Positions 36,729 to 46,400 of a stretch of 64,000 nt of DNA are shown here, in pieces. Within the stretch, counting starts at the first letter, position 1. The number at the start of each line of letters is the position of its first letter. The translations under genes and the position numbers were made by a program. Below the pieces are notes generated by a model. The model saw only the letters and a program-made list of their open reading frames with translations. It was not told the DNA's origin and did no database searches. This stretch comes from Anaerolineales bacterium HSG25 (GTDB lineage Bacteria > Chloroflexota > Anaerolineae > 4572-78 > J111), in the NCBI GenBank assembly GCA_030377865.1, contig JAUCGA010000021.1:1-64000 (forward strand), written 5' to 3'.

Positions 36729-37370
36729 TTACTTAATTAACAGTGCTCTTACCCCCGTCAACCGAGTTAGTTCTTGTATGACCGAATCAGTCTCTATAAA
36801 GTGAATGGCTAGCATGCCCACTGCTTTGGCCCCTTCAATGTTTTCGATAAAATCATCAATAAAGACGGCATCAGAGACATTAATGTCTAAACTTTCGGCG
36901 GCGAGATGATATATTTGGGGGGTTGGTTTGGCAATACCCACCTCAGCAGAGATGATAACCCCGTCAAAATAGTGAATGAATGGATAGGTGTTTGTCCATA
37001 ACGGACGAGCTTGGTCACTATAGTTGCTCAAAATACCGAGTGGATATCCGGCCTGTTTAAGCCGTTCAATATAGGCTACTAGCGGCTGGTTGAGATAATC
37101 GCCAGCAAAAAAATCTTGCTCCATGGTTTGGGCGTCAATTTCAGTGAGCTTAAAATGTTCAGCCAACCATTGCCAATGTTCGAGCCAACTTTTTTGTCCT
37201 AACTGCGCCTGCTTACCCGATTCATAATTAAAGATATAGCTTTCAAGTTCACTAGGTGACAGGTTTAACTTTGTGGCCCACTTTTCGCGGCCATGCCGAT
37301 GGTGGGTACGAATAAGCACGCCGCCAACATCAAAAATTACGGCTTTCGGTTTGTTTTTTATATGAGCCAT
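36729..37370 (-). CDS. HAD-superfamily phosphatase
   Basis: 213 residues. Motif I VIFDVGGVL (Asp nucleophile; the second acidic position is Gly, as in the YihX/epoxide-hydrolase-N subgroup), motif II ILSNYS, motif III Lys in GIAKPTPQIY and motif IV VFIDDFIENIEGAK. A helical cap follows motif I. Probably a small-molecule phosphatase; the substrate is unknown. Starts two bases after the preceding gene, so co-transcribed. Confidence 0.88.
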   Translation of the reverse strand: MAHIKNKPKAVIFDVGGVLIRTHHRHGREKWATKLNLSPSELESYIFNYESGKQAQLGQKSWLEHWQWLAEHFKLTEIDAQTMEQDFFAGDYLNQPLVAYIERLKQAGYPLGILSNYSDQARPLWTNTYPFIHYFDGVIISAEVGIAKPTPQIYHLAAESLDINVSDAVFIDDFIENIEGAKAVGMLAIHFIETDSVIQELTRLTGVRALLIK

Positions 37371-37372
37371 TT

Positions 37373-38374
37373 TTATTGCTCTAGGTCTCCTATAGAAACA
37401 TTGACGGTATCATAAGGGAAGAGGTAATAGTCTATGGGGACTGAATTGTCGTTTTTTAGGTGGATATAATGAAGCATCTCTTTAATAAGCATCCCACTCC
37501 ATTCTATCTCACCTGTGTTTGGATCTTCATCTTCAATACGTAATACTCCGGCTCCGATAGATTTCAGTTCCTCTCCTCTGGCCCAAACAACGGGGGCAGA
37601 CGCATCAAATATATTCATCTCAAGGTTGTATTTATTATTATTGGGAGTAAAAAATACTGTCAGGTTAGATGACTGGTACATTCCAGCATCAATTTCTTGT
37701 GGCATAATTGAGAATACATACCAACGTTCTTCACCCGGCTGTAATCTGCCTTTTGTATGGTCTTTCTCCATGTTTAAGGTAATGGGATTAGCAATATCCA
37801 TGCCAGATGTGGTTGCTACAGTTGTTGGTTTCTCTAAATCCGCTTTAATCACATCCTCGGTAAAGAGCCAATAATCGAGTGCGCTACTGTTTTTGTTTTC
37901 GAGACGGACTCTGTAAATTTTTTCACCTTCTACCCAACCCCGCCATGATAGTTCTCCTGTGTCGGGCTTGCCATCACGTGAAACGATGCTAGATGCACCA
38001 ACGTCAAGTTCATCGTCCGGTTCGAATAGCTCTAAACTTACATTCTGTACGGCATTTGTCTCGTTTGGAACGATAAATAAAGTCATAGGCAACTGCATAA
38101 ATGGATCTCCTTCTGGTTGAAATGAAAACCATAGCACCTCATTTGCCTCAATCTGTCCTATATTTTGACCCATTGTCATGGTAATAGGTTGGGTACTAAC
38201 AGCCGTTGAGCTTGTTGCTGTGGTAATAGTAGCAGTTACGGTTGGTGCTGGTGTAGCTTTACTATTACTACCTGTTTGTGCCTCAACAACCGTAACAGGT
38301 TTCAATAAAGAAGCGATACTTATGGCAAATATTCCTAACATAACTACCTTTATACTGATTGATAAATTTTTCAT
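37373..38374 (-). CDS. Secreted protein with two beta-rich repeats, unknown function
   Basis: 333 residues. Signal peptide at about 1-32 (VVMLGIFAISIASLL...VVEAQ), a Thr/Ser-rich linker to about 62, then two related domains of about 110-130 residues. They share ITMTMGQNIGQIEANEVLWFSF against ITLNMEKDHTKGRLQPGEERW, DTGELSWRGWV against NTGEIEWSGML, and LDYWLF against IDYYLF. The pattern resembles pre-peptidase C-type beta sandwiches, but I do not assign a family. AGGGGAAA precedes the ATG. Operon with the HAD gene, no clear functional link. Confidence 0.7.
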   Translation of the reverse strand: MKNLSISIKVVMLGIFAISIASLLKPVTVVEAQTGSNSKATPAPTVTATITTATSSTAVSTQPITMTMGQNIGQIEANEVLWFSFQPEGDPFMQLPMTLFIVPNETNAVQNVSLELFEPDDELDVGASSIVSRDGKPDTGELSWRGWVEGEKIYRVRLENKNSSALDYWLFTEDVIKADLEKPTTVATTSGMDIANPITLNMEKDHTKGRLQPGEERWYVFSIMPQEIDAGMYQSSNLTVFFTPNNNKYNLEMNIFDASAPVVWARGEELKSIGAGVLRIEDEDPNTGEIEWSGMLIKEMLHYIHLKNDNSVPIDYYLFPYDTVNVSIGDLEQ

Positions 38375-38985: not shown

Positions 38986-41900
38986 TTATTCCTGCGTTTC
39001 TATATCAATCGACCAGTTGTAGAAATCGAGCCGTTTATCAGCCGGATAGTTGCGATACAACCACGGTTTGGTTAAGGCAACACTTCCTGGGTGTGAGAGT
39101 GGAGCGTAGGCGGCTTCATCTACTGCTAATATCTGCTCGGCCTGAGCATATAGTTCAAAGCGCTCTCGGGGATCAGCTGTTTCTGCGGCGACAGTTGTTA
39201 ACTTATCAAACTCGGTTGGCCCCAAAATTTCTTGACAAGCTGGATCATTGCAGTTCCGACGAACATAGTTGGTGCCTTGTTGAGAGTTGAACACCTCATG
39301 CACAAAGTTGTTTTCATCGGGATAGGTGGCGCAATGGGTTGCATAGAATATATGAGGCATCTCTTCTATAGAAACACTATGATTATAATCCCCCCCTATA
39401 TTCTTTAGAGTTACTGTAATTCCTAATGTTTGGTACCACATTTGCTGAATCTTCTGTGTGGTTTCATTGTCCTTATCTAAAACAATGTCATAGATTACGT
39501 TAAATTCATCGGTAGTTAGACTCAAATCATCAAGATATTCTTGCAGTATAGTTTTAGCCATTTCAGGTTCATAAGATTGACCATATCGTCCCGGTGAAGG
39601 AGCGCCAAAGATACCTTGTGGGGCAAAGGTTGTCGCGGGCGTATCACCTAAACTTTCGTTGACAATCCCTTGACGGTCAATTGCGGCTGAAAATGCCTGG
39701 CGTATTCGTACATCATCAAAAGGAGCTTGGGGATATACAAAACCGAGATAATCACTGCAAGAGGTGTAATTTATACTCAACTCTTGAATAAACTGAGTAT
39801 TATTTTGAATGTTCTCTATTTCATCTATGAGATCAGAAAGGGTGTCAAACTCGTTGTCTTGATACATGGCCAGAGCTGTGGCGGTATCTGTAACGACGGT
39901 TTGGTTGATTTGTTCTATTTGAACCTGCTCTGCCTCGATCCATAGCGGATTTTTGATAAACTGAACCTGTTTCCCTTCATTCCATTGACTTAACAGGTAA
40001 GGGCCACTGGTATTAATTGCCTCAACGTTTGTCCACCCATCGGCCCATTCACTGATAGCCCAAGATGGTACTGGATAGGTGCGTGGATGTGAAAGAATAG
40101 CCGGAAAGTACACTGCTGGGTGCTTCAACTTAAATTTAACCGTCCAAGCATCAATTGCTTCCACCCCTAGCTCGGTCATGTCCAACTCTTGGGCATGGAC
40201 GGCTTGGGCATTTTCGATAATATAAAGCATGCTAGCTGTTGGGTTTTCAGATGATAGAACACGTTGAATTGTGTAAACCACATCATGAGCATTAACAAAT
40301 TTGGGGTTCCCATCAAAATCGGTAGCCTGCGTCACTTGGGCAGTTTGGGAATCATACTTTATCCACACAATATCGTTACGTAGTTTGAATGTCCATTCAA
40401 GCCCATCCTCAGAGGATTCCCAGTCTGTTGCCAGAGCAGGTACAACTTGACCGCCTTGAGGGTCGGATTGAGTTAGTCCCACAAATAAGTTTCGGATTTG
40501 AGCATCGTCCTCAGCTCGCTCAATGAAGGATGGGTCAAGGGTTTGAATTGCCTCAGGAAGATTGTAACGTAAGGTAACTAATCCACCAGTTATAACCTTT
40601 GCGGCTTCAATATCCCCAATAATAACAGATTCTATCTCCGTAATAGGTGTTTCCTCGTCAACTGTTACCTCTACAGTTGGTTCTTCTAACGTTTCTTCTG
40701 TCTCCTCTCCTGTCTCCTCTATCGAAGTTTCTTCATCTGAGGCTTCTTCTTCAAACAAACCCTCTGGATTAAACTCGATATCTTCATCTTCATTGCTCTC
40801 TAACCCATCTACCTCTGGATTCACGGTCTCTTCTGAATCGCCATTATTTATCTGTTTGTTTTTTAAAAGATACTCTTGATACTCTTTCTCAATCGCATCA
40901 TTTTTGGCCCGAATGGTTGCTAAATCAGGTGGAGCAGGATAAAAAATAATTAACGTAACCGCCAAAAAGGCTCCGATGACAACCGGCCAATATAACAGTT
41001 TTGGGTAAAGATTATTGCCAAATTGGATAAAGGAGATGTTAATGTTTGAATAGAATAACATGGAGTTAACCGAAATGATAAGTAAGATCACGTAAGCAGA
41101 AATGTAGGCATATTCTAGGTATACTACTCCAGATGCCTGTAACTCACTTCGTAAGCCGACATGAGACACGGCAACCACAAAGAAAAGCGCGGCCGCATAA
41201 GATAGTACATTAAAAGAGTTTTCGGCTTGAACAAGCAAAACGGCAAACATAAGGGAAATAACAACCAGAATTGTAACCGCATGGGCTATGATTGGTGATA
41301 AAATCGAACGACTGATCACTACATTATAATATAAATCAGGAATATAATGCTTTTTTATAGTCCGATTGCCTCCAAAGTCGGTGCTATATTTATCGGTGCG
41401 ATAACTGAAATAGCTACGAAGAATATACCAATCTTGTATAACGAGATTTTCAACCAAACCGGGTTGTTTAATCGGTTCAATAAATTCGTAACTATCTAAA
41501 TCTGGGATGAGAACAAAATTTTTATCTAATAAGCGAGGCCAAATCTGCAACTGTACGGTAGCCTGATCAAGAGGGTATTTATGGACACTTGGCTTTTGAC
41601 GCAAGGTTGCTCGAAAGAACCAACCAACCGTTTCGGTGTCACCTTCTGTAAAACGATAAATTTCGTCGATGTGTGCGCCTTCGTCATCAACTGAATCTGT
41701 TAATAAGGGCATTTCTTTGGCGGCTTCCGGTAAATCTTGCGGATATTTCTGCCAAATGTAACCAGATACTGAACTTTCGATAGTGTTTTCGAAACCAATC
41801 GTTTCCAACATCACCCCCGTTGGAATTTCGATTGTTTCACCCCCTTCATTTCCATTTCTAAGGCGATTGTCGATAATCGCTAAATGCTTTTTTAGCGTCG

Positions 41901-43152
41901 AGGAATCGGCTAAAACGGTTTCTAAATGATTATAAGGAGGATAAGCCATTTCCAGATACCAAATACAACCGATAGCTGTAATAAATAAAATAGCAGTAAA
42001 AAATGACACTGCCCACAAGTTGTATACCCCACCGTTATAGGCTCGAAAAAGAAGTACAGAGAGGAACAATAGAAAACCTGTTCCTGATAGGATGATTTGA
42101 ATAAGGCTACGTTTGTTGGTATTGGGGTCAAGTAAGCGAATATCTTTGTTAAAAACAACTCCTATCGACCAGCCTGCAATTGGCACAGGTTCATAAAATA
42201 TCCAATTTTCTTGACCTGTTTCAGGGTCAACTTCTTCCCGATAGAAAATTTTACCTGCTAAAGCCCGTTCACCATCACGACGTAATGCTTCATTCCCAGT
42301 TTCATCAGCTATTTCAAAAATTGTCCGTTCCAAGTATCCCTTATCTGGATGGGAGATAAATTTCCCCTCTTTGGAGAGAATATAACTATATCCACCCTCA
42401 CCCAAATCAAGCGATTTAACAAATTCGGTTAAAGTTTCTAAAGAATGGTCAACATAAATTAAGCCGATTGGCATGTTCTCAAACGTGTCGGGATTAAGTC
42501 GATAAAAAGGAATAGTGTATTCGGCTAAATATGTCTGAGCCACTTCACCAAAATAGGGTTCGATCCAGCCCCCACCTTGAGATATTGAGCTATACCAAGC
42601 TGATTGTGGAAGTTCAGAGTCGGTATAATCATAAAAATTTTCGATTTGACCCCGTTTAAACTCACCCAGTTCGTTTTTACTGTAATAAGGGGCAAATAAA
42701 TCCTTATCAGATTTATACTCTCTTGGTTCAAAGGCCGCCCCTAAACCAAATATATTTGGTTTTTTATCTACATCACTGGTTATACGTGAAACTAATTCCT
42801 CGTTAGAAAGCTTTTTGTGGGTCAAGTCATTGGCAATGCCTCTGGCTAAGAGCATGGTTTCATTTAATTCTCGATTAATGCTCAGAGCCACCCGAAACGC
42901 ATCCCGATGAGCGTCTTCAAAGGCTATTGTTTCTTGTTGAGCTTTGTACTTGTTGTATTGCGAATTAAGGTATAGGGTCAATCCTAAAAAAAGAAAGCAA
43001 CAGATTAGTGCAATGAGAAACACCGAACTACCCTCAAAAAGGGCCATGCGACTAATATCCGTTTTCGCCTCGCTTCGCCCCATCATAAGCAGGGCTTCAC
43101 TAACCGATTTAGTTCTTTGGGCTTTACTTCGTTGTTTCGGTTTTTGTGACAT
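38986..43152 (-). CDS. dCache - four-helix channel-like - SBP_bac_5 fusion receptor
   Basis: 1388 residues, start at 43152 with AGGGGG upstream. Helix at about 42-62; extracellular dCache-like sensor at about 65-345 (GWIEPYFGEV, GEGGYSYILSKEGKFISHPD, GWSIGVVFNKD); helices at 350-370 and 378-400; a beta-rich extracellular domain at about 405-612 with KYPLDQATVQLQIWP and IQDWYI; four helices at about 619-642, 646-664, 681-702, 717-738; a Glu-rich linker (about 770-850); and a family 5 oligopeptide-type solute-binding domain (about 855-1388; LRYNLPEAIQTLDPS, DAHDVVYTIQR-like, RQAFSAAIDRQGIV). The beta domain plus four helices resembles a pentameric ligand-gated ion channel subunit; this part is inference. 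Topology keeps all three ligand-binding domains outside. Two bases after the preceding gene. Confidence 0.7.
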   Translation of the reverse strand: MSQKPKQRSKAQRTKSVSEALLMMGRSEAKTDISRMALFEGSSVFLIALICCFLFLGLTLYLNSQYNKYKAQQETIAFEDAHRDAFRVALSINRELNETMLLARGIANDLTHKKLSNEELVSRITSDVDKKPNIFGLGAAFEPREYKSDKDLFAPYYSKNELGEFKRGQIENFYDYTDSELPQSAWYSSISQGGGWIEPYFGEVAQTYLAEYTIPFYRLNPDTFENMPIGLIYVDHSLETLTEFVKSLDLGEGGYSYILSKEGKFISHPDKGYLERTIFEIADETGNEALRRDGERALAGKIFYREEVDPETGQENWIFYEPVPIAGWSIGVVFNKDIRLLDPNTNKRSLIQIILSGTGFLLFLSVLLFRAYNGGVYNLWAVSFFTAILFITAIGCIWYLEMAYPPYNHLETVLADSSTLKKHLAIIDNRLRNGNEGGETIEIPTGVMLETIGFENTIESSVSGYIWQKYPQDLPEAAKEMPLLTDSVDDEGAHIDEIYRFTEGDTETVGWFFRATLRQKPSVHKYPLDQATVQLQIWPRLLDKNFVLIPDLDSYEFIEPIKQPGLVENLVIQDWYILRSYFSYRTDKYSTDFGGNRTIKKHYIPDLYYNVVISRSILSPIIAHAVTILVVISLMFAVLLVQAENSFNVLSYAAALFFVVAVSHVGLRSELQASGVVYLEYAYISAYVILLIISVNSMLFYSNINISFIQFGNNLYPKLLYWPVVIGAFLAVTLIIFYPAPPDLATIRAKNDAIEKEYQEYLLKNKQINNGDSEETVNPEVDGLESNEDEDIEFNPEGLFEEEASDEETSIEETGEETEETLEEPTVEVTVDEETPITEIESVIIGDIEAAKVITGGLVTLRYNLPEAIQTLDPSFIERAEDDAQIRNLFVGLTQSDPQGGQVVPALATDWESSEDGLEWTFKLRNDIVWIKYDSQTAQVTQATDFDGNPKFVNAHDVVYTIQRVLSSENPTASMLYIIENAQAVHAQELDMTELGVEAIDAWTVKFKLKHPAVYFPAILSHPRTYPVPSWAISEWADGWTNVEAINTSGPYLLSQWNEGKQVQFIKNPLWIEAEQVQIEQINQTVVTDTATALAMYQDNEFDTLSDLIDEIENIQNNTQFIQELSINYTSCSDYLGFVYPQAPFDDVRIRQAFSAAIDRQGIVNESLGDTPATTFAPQGIFGAPSPGRYGQSYEPEMAKTILQEYLDDLSLTTDEFNVIYDIVLDKDNETTQKIQQMWYQTLGITVTLKNIGGDYNHSVSIEEMPHIFYATHCATYPDENNFVHEVFNSQQGTNYVRRNCNDPACQEILGPTEFDKLTTVAAETADPRERFELYAQAEQILAVDEAAYAPLSHPGSVALTKPWLYRNYPADKRLDFYNWSIDIETQE

Positions 43153-43154
43153 AA

Positions 43155-46100
43155 TTAACCCCCTAATCGTTCCCGACATTCATCAAGAATTTTTTGAGCC
43201 GTTGGAACAAGGGCATCAAGTTCAGTTTGAATTTGTTCTTGTTTTATTTCGTCAAGCATGATTTTTTCCCAAACTTCATCAGCCGTTTCGATGACAGTAC
43301 TACTACACGGATGGATGTTTCGCCATGTTGCGATAGGGGTGAGGTCTAAAACATTAAAGAAAGCCCTTGTTGATTCTTCGTCAGCGTTCTTATGTTCTAT
43401 TAAAACGGTTTTAATTGACGGGAAGAGTGTGCCATGTTCCATGAGAAATCGTTGCCCCGGTGGGCCAGCCCACCATTTTAGAAACGTCCAAGCCTCGTCA
43501 GGATGTTTTGTTTCTTTCCAGATAGAGGCTGGCAATGACCATGAGTTGACATAATGGGGAGCATCAGCCAAGCCCGGTTCAGGCAGAACTCCAAAATTTA
43601 ATCCAGCTTCTTGAACCGAAAGCATGTGTCCCTGATTGAGTGTTGCCATCGCCAGTCGTCCATCTAAAAAAAGATCTACCGGGCCAGTTGCCTCTCGTCC
43701 TAACGCTTCAATGTCAGCCACCGAAGGAGTGCTATCCGTCTGAACCAAATTCCATAGCCATGTATAAGCGGCCACCGATTCTGGACTGTTTAGGTAGCTA
43801 TCAACTGTCAAACTATTGTCACTGTATGGACGCGCTCCGTAGTTAAACCAGAGCGCCCGAAAAGGATGTCGAGGACGGTCTCCTCCCCAACGTTTTTTGG
43901 CTGGATCATTAAGTTGAGTAACGAGCATGAGCCAATCATCGGTCGTCCAATCTTCGGTCGGGTAGGGGAGGCCGACTTCATCAAAAATATCTTTATTGTA
44001 TAGTACAATACTAGCTCCTACCCCCAAAGGGAGAGCCACAATCTTATCATCCCACAAAGCGCGAGTTTTCCAAAAGCCGGACAGATACATGGAGGTGTCA
44101 AAGTTATCATGTTCAATAAATGGGGCTAAATCAAGTGCTTCGGGGAACCAACTTTTATCCCAAAAAAAGGCTACATCAGGCCCATTATCGCCAGCCTCAA
44201 AAGCGGTTTCCATGTATCCCGTAAAGTTACTCTCACTTAGGACGGTCATGTTTATTTTTATATGTGGATGTTCGGCTTCAAACTGTTCAACCATTTCTCG
44301 TTGAACCTGCTCGCTATACTCCTCCGAGTCCACCGTCCACCATTCGAGAGTCACAACATCAGCAGAATCTTCCGCCATTTCCATCGTTTCTGTCACAGTG
44401 ACATCAGTTTGCGGATCATCCAAGAACTGGTTGACATTGGCAAAATCTACAAAGCGTGGTCCGGTAGGCCAAATTTTATCAGCGGGTATGTTAGCATTGT
44501 CGTTATACAATTTTAATAGGACAATAGGAATGTAACCTTGAAGGTATTGCTGTTGGTCAACCGCAAATATAATATCGTTGTTTTTTATTAGCGTTAGTAT
44601 CTCCGGCGATGTGTCGAAAGTGGCTAGTTTAACTTTGTTTGATAGTCGCTCCGTACCTTCGATTATCTCTAAGGTAGGCATAATTATTGACATATCTGCG
44701 GTCAAGACACCCACAATACCCATTTGAGCCTTGATTGCCCTCACGACCTGCTCTTCCATATCAATCAGATTATCTGGGTCAACAATTAGCGTCTCAACCG
44801 TACCGTTGACTCGTTCTAGGGCATCGGTAAAACCTTCGCAACGTAATCGTAGGGTTTGGCTATCTTGGTTATTGCTGATACAAACACCGTTCCTTACCCC
44901 AAAAATAGCCAACCGTTTGCCCGAATTAAAACCCGCTTCATACTCTAACTGTCCAACATGGGTCAGAACACCTAGCGAAGAAGTTACTTCAGAACCAGAG
45001 TTGATGGAAATAACGGGGATTCCAGCTTCAATGGCTGTCTCAATTGAGGGGACTAATGTTTCGAGGTCGGGTATTGAGACGACTAAACCATCCGGTTTAG
45101 TCGCAACTGCTTCGTCAATCAGTTGCGCCATAGCCTGTATATCTGCCAATTCTGGAGCTAGAAATTTAACCGTCCCCCCCATGTTTTGTTGAATTGATTT
45201 GGGGCGATATTGTATCCTTCCGGCTGGAGCCAGAAACTCAACAGTAACACCTAATTCCTGAGCCGCTTGGTTGACCCCGTCCTCCACGATAGACCAAAAA
45301 CTGTCTCCCTTTCCTTGGGTAATTACGACAAAATGTAATGGTTCCGTGGATTCTTCTGTGGTTTGGGTTGAGGTTTTAGCCCGTACCTTTTCTGTAGCCT
45401 CTATAACGGCATCTACATTTTTTAGGGTCACAAAATTGGGGCCGGTTGGTGTTATATCATCGACCGGAACATTTCCATTATTTAAGTAAAGATGCAATAG
45501 CATAACGGGTAAATATCCCTGTAGGTATTGTTGCTGGTCAACAGCAAATAGTATTTCTTCGCTTTGAATCGCTTCAATAATCTCAGGCGACAGGTCAAAT
45601 GTTGCTAGGGTAATATTATCAAGCCTGTTTTTTTCTTTGAGTGCCCGTAGAGCCGCCATCCCGACGTTGCCCCCGCCCGTTAAAATGCCATCAACCGTAG
45701 AGATTGCCTCTAGCGCCATACCAATTCGTTGCTGGGTAGCCATAAGGTCAGAATTGTCTACCGCCAGTGTATCCGCAACACCCCCTACCTCTATCATGGC
45801 ATCAGTAAACCCTTGACATCGAGCATCAATGGCTCTATTTCCGACCTCTTGATTTACACAAAACCCATGCCGTACACCCGCCTCGACCAAGCGTTTTCCT
45901 GCTTGAACCCCGGCTTCATATTCTAACTGTCCGACATGAGTTAGTACGCCTAAATTTACGGTAGTCTCTTGACCCACATTAATCGAAATGATCGGAATAT
46001 TCGCTTCAACAGCTTTTTCAATTGCTGGAGATAAAGCCCCCACATCTGGGATTGAAACCACTAAACCATCTGGTGGGGTGGTTATAACCGTTTCGATTTT

Positions 46101-46400
46101 TTGAGCCATTAATTCAACGTCAAAACTTGCCGGACTCCGATAATCAACCGTAAGGTCGAAATCGTTAGCGGCTTGATCCGCACCTCGTTTAACGACCGCC
46201 CAAAATGGATTGGAGGCTACCCCATGAGTGACAAAAACAATGTGTGTTTTAGTAATCATGTCCTGCTCCAAAACCGAAGGTGTAACTGCCTCTATCGTTG
46301 AAGATATTTCATCATTAGGGGGTTGGTTGTTACAACCACATAGCAATAAAACGAGAATAACTGAGATAAATAGAGTTTTGTTGGTGAGATGTACTGACAT
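43155..46400 (-). CDS. Lipoprotein with two sugar-type and one family 1 solute-binding domains
   Basis: 1081 residues. Lipobox LCGC (Cys23) after a hydrophobic signal. Two homologous Peripla_BP_4 (RbsB-like) domains at about 50-338 and 355-660 share GLVVSIPD, LGVLTHVGQLEYEAG, LATFD.SPEI and FAVDQQQYLQGY, each with a Cys pair (FC...RCQGF, VC...RCEGF). A family 1 solute-binding domain covers 680-1081 (TLEWWTVDSEEYSEQV, GPDVAFFWDKSWFPEAL, AWTFLKWWAGPPGQRFL). A 24-residue extra segment sits in the second domain. Start at 46400 is chosen over the longer frame because it places a proper signal peptide. No permease or ATPase is near; it probably feeds ligands to the downstream receptor. Confidence 0.85.
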   Translation of the reverse strand: MSVHLTNKTLFISVILVLLLCGCNNQPPNDEISSTIEAVTPSVLEQDMITKTHIVFVTHGVASNPFWAVVKRGADQAANDFDLTVDYRSPASFDVELMAQKIETVITTPPDGLVVSIPDVGALSPAIEKAVEANIPIISINVGQETTVNLGVLTHVGQLEYEAGVQAGKRLVEAGVRHGFCVNQEVGNRAIDARCQGFTDAMIEVGGVADTLAVDNSDLMATQQRIGMALEAISTVDGILTGGGNVGMAALRALKEKNRLDNITLATFDLSPEIIEAIQSEEILFAVDQQQYLQGYLPVMLLHLYLNNGNVPVDDITPTGPNFVTLKNVDAVIEATEKVRAKTSTQTTEESTEPLHFVVITQGKGDSFWSIVEDGVNQAAQELGVTVEFLAPAGRIQYRPKSIQQNMGGTVKFLAPELADIQAMAQLIDEAVATKPDGLVVSIPDLETLVPSIETAIEAGIPVISINSGSEVTSSLGVLTHVGQLEYEAGFNSGKRLAIFGVRNGVCISNNQDSQTLRLRCEGFTDALERVNGTVETLIVDPDNLIDMEEQVVRAIKAQMGIVGVLTADMSIIMPTLEIIEGTERLSNKVKLATFDTSPEILTLIKNNDIIFAVDQQQYLQGYIPIVLLKLYNDNANIPADKIWPTGPRFVDFANVNQFLDDPQTDVTVTETMEMAEDSADVVTLEWWTVDSEEYSEQVQREMVEQFEAEHPHIKINMTVLSESNFTGYMETAFEAGDNGPDVAFFWDKSWFPEALDLAPFIEHDNFDTSMYLSGFWKTRALWDDKIVALPLGVGASIVLYNKDIFDEVGLPYPTEDWTTDDWLMLVTQLNDPAKKRWGGDRPRHPFRALWFNYGARPYSDNSLTVDSYLNSPESVAAYTWLWNLVQTDSTPSVADIEALGREATGPVDLFLDGRLAMATLNQGHMLSVQEAGLNFGVLPEPGLADAPHYVNSWSLPASIWKETKHPDEAWTFLKWWAGPPGQRFLMEHGTLFPSIKTVLIEHKNADEESTRAFFNVLDLTPIATWRNIHPCSSTVIETADEVWEKIMLDEIKQEQIQTELDALVPTAQKILDECRERLGG

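Follow-up and report, generated by a model that had tools for sequence, protein, structure and literature searches.

Prokaryotic pentameric ligand-gated ion channels (pLGICs) with an N-terminal type I periplasmic binding protein (PBP-I) or MCP-N plus Cache domains, and with type II binding protein (PBP-II) genes in the same operon, were described by Tasneem et al. 2004 (PMC549065), who proposed that such fusions and operons serve as chemoreceptors assisted by sensors, with concentration of the ligand by the binding proteins. Jaiteh et al. left the flanking domains out of consideration and urged that architectures be studied (PMC4795631), and as of 2022 DeCLIC was described as the only member of solved structure to carry an additional N-terminal domain (PMC9897478). 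Here we describe a gene at positions 38986-43152 (minus strand) of a 64,000-nucleotide stretch of contig JAUCGA010000021.1 from Anaerolineales bacterium HSG25 (this whole stretch is referred to as the window in the rest of the text), which codes for a receptor of 1388 residues combining a dCache sensor, a pLGIC-type core and a solute-binding protein (SBP) domain located past the last membrane helix, M4. An initial annotation of this DNA knew of no described protein with a solute-binding domain at this place, and our search of open-licence papers likewise found no description of a pLGIC with any domain past M4. What is new is the PBP-II domain fused past M4; N-terminal Cache or PBP-I fusions and adjoining PBP-II genes were already known.

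The pLGICs with MCP-N and Cache domains (Methanosarcina, Cytophaga and Microbulbifer; PMC549065) also place Cache ahead of the ectodomain and the four helices. However, nothing resembling a binding protein follows their M4, where the receptor has a 534-residue SBP_bac_5 domain, and PBP-II was reported for them only as a separate operon gene. DeCLIC (Desulfofustis; PMC9897478) is likewise a multidomain bacterial pLGIC with an extra extracellular domain that modulates gating, but its additional lobes, N-terminal jelly rolls, pack against the ectodomain, it has no transmembrane (TM) hairpin, and nothing was reported past its M4. GLIC from Gloeobacter (PDB 3eam, 4ire) shares the fold of the ectodomain and M1-M4 as well as a Pro-loop YPxD, and is the best profile match of the receptor core with a TM-score among the best; it differs in its length of about 317 residues, its gating by protons, its lack of accessory domains, the presence of the M1 proline and an identity of only ~12%.

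Pfam matches above cut-off delimit the two sensors, dCache_1 at residues 88-333 (E 8e-15, 55.4 bits, cut-off 45) and SBP_bac_5 at residues 902-1293 (E 2e-55, 188.7 bits). Hydropathy analysis revealed seven hydrophobic segments (44-62, 350-368, 379-397, 621-639, 649-667, ~675-700 and 719-737), of which one precedes dCache, two lie between dCache and the beta-rich domain and four follow the latter. Since the first 40 residues contain nine K/R for four D/E, this basic N-terminus is predicted to lie inside and, with seven segments, the C-terminus outside, which would place dCache, the channel ectodomain and the SBP all outside the cell, as the initial annotation had proposed. The features of the gene (all on the minus strand) are as follows.

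38986..43152, minus strand: whole gene, dCache - pLGIC - SBP_bac_5 receptor subunit, 1388 aa (open reading frame list, Pfam)
42967..43023, minus strand: TM0, residues 44-62, predicted signal anchor with the N-terminus inside (hydropathy, AF2 helix)
42118..42960, minus strand: dCache_1 sensor, residues 65-345, predicted outside (Pfam; Foldseek to dCache structures, TMt 0.71-0.82)
41941..42111, minus strand: TM hairpin TMa/TMb (348-372, 375-404), joint between dCache and ectodomain (hydropathy; AF2 helices 343-368 and 376-403)
41314..41940, minus strand: pLGIC-type beta-sandwich ectodomain, residues 405-613 (AF2 and Foldseek; profile versus PDB)
41566..41577, minus strand: Pro-loop motif YPLD, residues 526-529 (P and D unchanged in every valid relative)
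41233..41301, minus strand: M1, residues 618-640, pre-M1 Arg615 kept, canonical Pro replaced by Thr627 (AF2, alignment)
41143..41217, minus strand: M2, predicted pore helix, residues 646-670, with Glu644 ahead at about -1' (AF2; alignment to GLIC)
41050..41121, minus strand: M3, residues 678-701 (AF2)
40942..41010, minus strand: M4, residues 715-737, end predicted outside (AF2, hydropathy)
40591..40941, minus strand: post-M4 helix and acidic linker, residues 738-854 (AF2, composition, conservation)
38989..40590, minus strand: C-terminal solute-binding domain of SBP_bac_5/OppA type, residues 855-1388 (Pfam; OppA 1b05)

The core was matched by neither Pfam nor NCBIfam, and a phmmer search of PDB with the single core sequence returned only a chance match (E 0.33), so a family profile was needed. 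A scan of public genomes for related cores gave 34 loci, and a profile built from 30 sequences was searched against all PDB sequences. All 46 chains below E 10 were pLGICs, GLIC being the best (E 1.1e-4). An AF2 model of the core, computed from the family alignment (mean predicted local distance difference test score, pLDDT, 83), contains a membrane helix, alpha-1, the beta sandwich, M1-M4 and one helix past M4. Foldseek found 746 matches to this model in PDB below 1e-3, and the best 50 were all pLGICs (GABA-A, glycine and nicotinic receptors, GLIC, sTeLIC and related proteins), with a TMt of 0.72 for GLIC. A larger model (residues 36-768) retained both the dCache and the pLGIC folds in Foldseek comparisons. 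The receptor thus belongs to the pLGIC family by fold (beta sandwich plus four TM helices) and by sequence profile, and the fold that the initial annotation had expected for residues 405-745 was borne out. So was its placing of YPLD at 526-529 and of Trp575: both P527 and D529 are invariant in the 31 valid relatives used for motif and conservation counts (L042, with an overlapping frame and a BON domain match, was left out), Trp575 is conserved, and the pre-M1 Arg615 is invariant, which gives the receptor the (F/Y)PxD Pro-loop and pre-M1 arginine that are features of pLGICs.

Full-length copies with the same domain order were found in the same genome (L009:2023-5991, 1323 aa, ~70% identity) and in Anaerolineales bacterium HSG24, another species of the same genus (L024:4945-9141, 1399 aa, 80% identity); G410, also of this genus, codes for the same 1399-aa protein as HSG24. 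The receptor frame is therefore neither a chance frame nor an assembly chimera. Among the three copies, conservation peaks in M1-M4 (84-89% amino acid identity), where codon differences are 0.02 at position 2 versus 0.33-0.51 at position 3. Codon-position differences place dCache, the ectodomain, M1-M4 and the SBP under purifying selection, which with the full-length copies confirms the 1388-residue frame read initially, while the acidic linker (39 D/E within residues 740-855) is the least conserved part and drifts.

Several observations weigh against a channel controlled by the two sensors. dCache domains are often dimeric and have no obvious fit to a 5-fold channel. Within the window's family, the receptor is confined to this genus (2 of 12 genomes). 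Residues 340-850 have no Pfam match; the pLGIC ligand-binding and transmembrane models PF02931 and PF02932, with which the initial annotation had suggested checking its proposal, miss the protein. This blank could be taken for the mark of mis-joined genes, or of an unrelated membrane domain merely resembling a pLGIC, an explanation to which we give practically no chance and which is already refuted by three intact copies in two species, by the occurrence of about 25 relatives with dCache and core across several phyla, and by profile and fold matches that point to pLGICs exclusively. Finally, M2 contains unusual bulky residues, aromatics included, and the canonical M1 proline, present in 26 of the 31 relatives, is Thr627 in the receptor and a threonine in both sister copies. 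This proline is the most conserved TM position of pLGICs (PMC4795631). Together with an M1-M2 loop shorter than that of the relatives, its loss in the window's genus and the aromatics in M2 would suit a pseudo-channel, that is, a pLGIC fold retained as an oligomeric scaffold in the membrane, which would pass on the state of the sensors by conformation and conduct no ions. We consider this improbable: no segment is conserved more strongly than M1-M4, and L030 and L038 also lack the proline, which is strongly conserved in pLGICs but not definitional. Moreover, the receptor has no cytoplasmic output domain and its cytoplasmic loops are short, so that a non-conducting relay would have no target. 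Residues 405-745 very probably constitute a pLGIC-type channel, with a putative pentamer and pore.

The two sensors are of well-studied types. The dCache fold of the 36-768 model is closest to the sensor domains of mmHK1, MkcA, TlpQ and PacA (Foldseek, TMt up to 0.82). With the dCache_1 sensors of amines and amino acids (mmHK1 3LIB, PacA, TlpQ, PctA) it shares the fold, the aromatic WY pair and a conserved Asp (about residue 234), but those are attached to a chemoreceptor or a kinase, whereas the receptor's dCache is attached to a channel and lacks the motif arginine. The dCache_1AA motif consists of the WY pair, an Arg located two positions ahead of it, and the Asp; alignment to PctA places a Ser at the Arg position, and a canonical amino-acid sensor was rejected on this ground. 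In the comparison with dCache_1AM, the aromatic pair and the Asp are present, and the insertion positions of the PctD Trp155/Arg103 type could not be aligned. The C-terminal domain matches OppA (PDB 1b05) with E 1.5e-45 over 505 residues, and the homology runs along all of residues 855-1388. Unlike OppA, this SBP is tethered to a channel, and the OppA residues Trp397, Arg404, Arg413, Trp416 and Asp419 (1b05 numbering), which contact the peptide in OppA, are replaced by Gly, Ser, Tyr, His and Thr, respectively; all three copies read HCATY or RCATY versus (G)WCADY in OppA. As the peptide-binding residues are missing, the case for an ordinary oligopeptide binder is weakened and the ligand is probably another one.

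The receptor gene (1388 codons plus stop) starts with an ATG located 2 nt past the stop codon of the upstream gene and preceded by AGGGGG, a good ribosome-binding site. The neighbouring genes are the following.

43155..46400, minus strand: gene preceding the receptor in the operon, coding for a lipoprotein-like triple binding protein (2 x Peripla_BP_4 + SBP_bac_1, Pfam)
37373..38374, minus strand: downstream secreted protein, family unknown, syntenic in HSG24
36729..37370, minus strand: downstream HAD-like hydrolase, syntenic in HSG24

The start of the triple binding protein gene is likely the ATG at 46400. Its three domains, fused in a single gene in the window species, are split in HSG24 over two genes (PBP-I, and PBP-I plus SBP_bac_1; L024:1710-4969), and the second PBP-I domain of the fused protein carries an extra insertion of ~25 residues compared to HSG24. 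At the paralog locus, two separate Peripla_BP_4-type genes adjoin the receptor, with no SBP_bac_1. Binding proteins are therefore encoded directly upstream of the receptor at all three loci, and no permease or ATPase gene lies beside it at any of them. In G410/HSG24, the receptor operon is closely preceded on its upstream side by a Ras/Roc-type small GTPase gene (L078:3906-4439, PF00071, E 6e-35); no counterpart was seen upstream of the operon in the window.

We propose that the gene product is a subunit of a homopentameric pLGIC-type channel of the cytoplasmic membrane, in which five subunits would form a pore lined by M2. Binding of a small solute by dCache would be signalled through the TM hairpin packed beside the pore, while the solute-loaded SBP could dock on the ectodomain or on the M4/pre-M1 region, or hand its ligand to the ectodomain. 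Both sensors would shift the balance between open and closed states, and the resulting flow of ions, probably cations because Glu644 lies near -1', would be the chemosensory signal. The upstream triple binding protein, either diffusing or anchored to lipid, may collect ligand for the receptor. Alternatively, a true channel could carry an SBP that takes no part in gating, either a tethered collector that enriches ligand locally for the ectodomain or a ligand donor to an ABC importer whose genes lie elsewhere. The long, flexible, poorly conserved acidic linker suits a tether better than rigid coupling, ligand concentration by PBPs was already proposed by Tasneem et al. (PMC549065), and the same genome contains a complete opp-type operon (on C47) whose SBP is 38% identical. 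Yet the absence of permease and ATPase genes beside the receptor, the oddity of five channel-fixed SBPs as importer donors, the loss of the OppA pocket residues, the retention of the SBP-channel fusion in all three copies and the emergence of the same plan twice (see below) make this alternative rather unlikely. Gating of a pLGIC-type channel by two sensors, dCache and SBP, is the reading we favour, with some reserve. Little is known about the ligands that bacterial pLGICs respond to in nature or about their physiological roles, and this receptor offers a route to a natural agonist, which should be directly findable given two sensors that can be screened in isolation and an adjoining triple binding protein.

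A remote profile match led to a second case, a 1304-aa frame (L075:3425-7336) in G224, from another family of the class Anaerolineae. Its order is Peripla_BP_6, pLGIC (Neur_chan_memb, 34.1 bits, cut-off 28.1) and, past M4, SBP_bac_1 (E 4e-34). The true start likely lies near residue 90, with a lipoprotein-like signal, and a histone-deacetylase-like gene is found nearby (L075:7913-8932). A search of the class with the whole protein gave results dominated by ordinary SBPs. Like the window's receptor, this protein has a binding protein fused past M4 and another sensor ahead, but it belongs to a different pLGIC clade and has PBP-I in place of dCache and SBP family 1 in place of 5. In a tree of 41 cores, it falls among Peripla_BP_6-pLGICs far from the window's clade, from which its group is split by a fully supported branch of length 2.09, in a tree that contains long branches. 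The starred branches require the SBP-after-M4 character to have changed at least twice, so that two gains from different SBP families would be the simplest history. In animal receptors, the extracellular end of M4 is known to be a site of modulation; these two cases suggest that it can also accept a large sensor domain and has done so twice. More tentatively, and short of what we would call probable, such proteins may be pLGICs gated from both ends, with post-M4 venus-flytrap regulators of at least two origins in Anaerolineae, paralleling by another route the animal glutamate receptors gated by binding proteins.

Among the related-core loci, SBP_bac_5 was matched only in the three copies of the window's genus; most relatives either are dCache-pLGICs of ~720 aa with nothing past M4 or consist of the core alone (360-385 aa). 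The core sequence was matched in 9 of 400 genomes in a phylum sample, the other matching genomes all coming from one family. PF02931 gave no match over 301 Chloroflexota genomes, a result that is uninformative since the controls were missed too. Surveys that rely on Pfam miss a family of dCache-pLGICs that occurs in Chloroflexota, Cyanobacteria and further phyla. We also considered whether SBP genes commonly flank the dCache-pLGIC relatives; with the queries used, none was seen within the flanking stretches covered at L025-L057 except for an opposite-strand fragment (L028). At L030:2643-6139, the nearest other core relative, a second pLGIC core comes immediately after a dCache-pLGIC, a tandem suggestive of a putative heteromeric channel.

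Other binding-protein fusions occur in the genome. The C-terminus of a 1353-aa protein (L010:3623-7681, G000:C36) matches the SBP_bac_5 domain, and the protein resembles a regulator of the BTAD/SARP type that includes an ATPase part (domain names assigned by eye), which would put a binding-protein fold on a probably cytoplasmic regulator. L099:3951-7877 (G000:C96) codes for a 1308-aa lipoprotein with three similar SBP_bac_1-type domains in tandem, and C126 (L011) also carries tandem binding-protein fusions, to which the window's genus seems prone.

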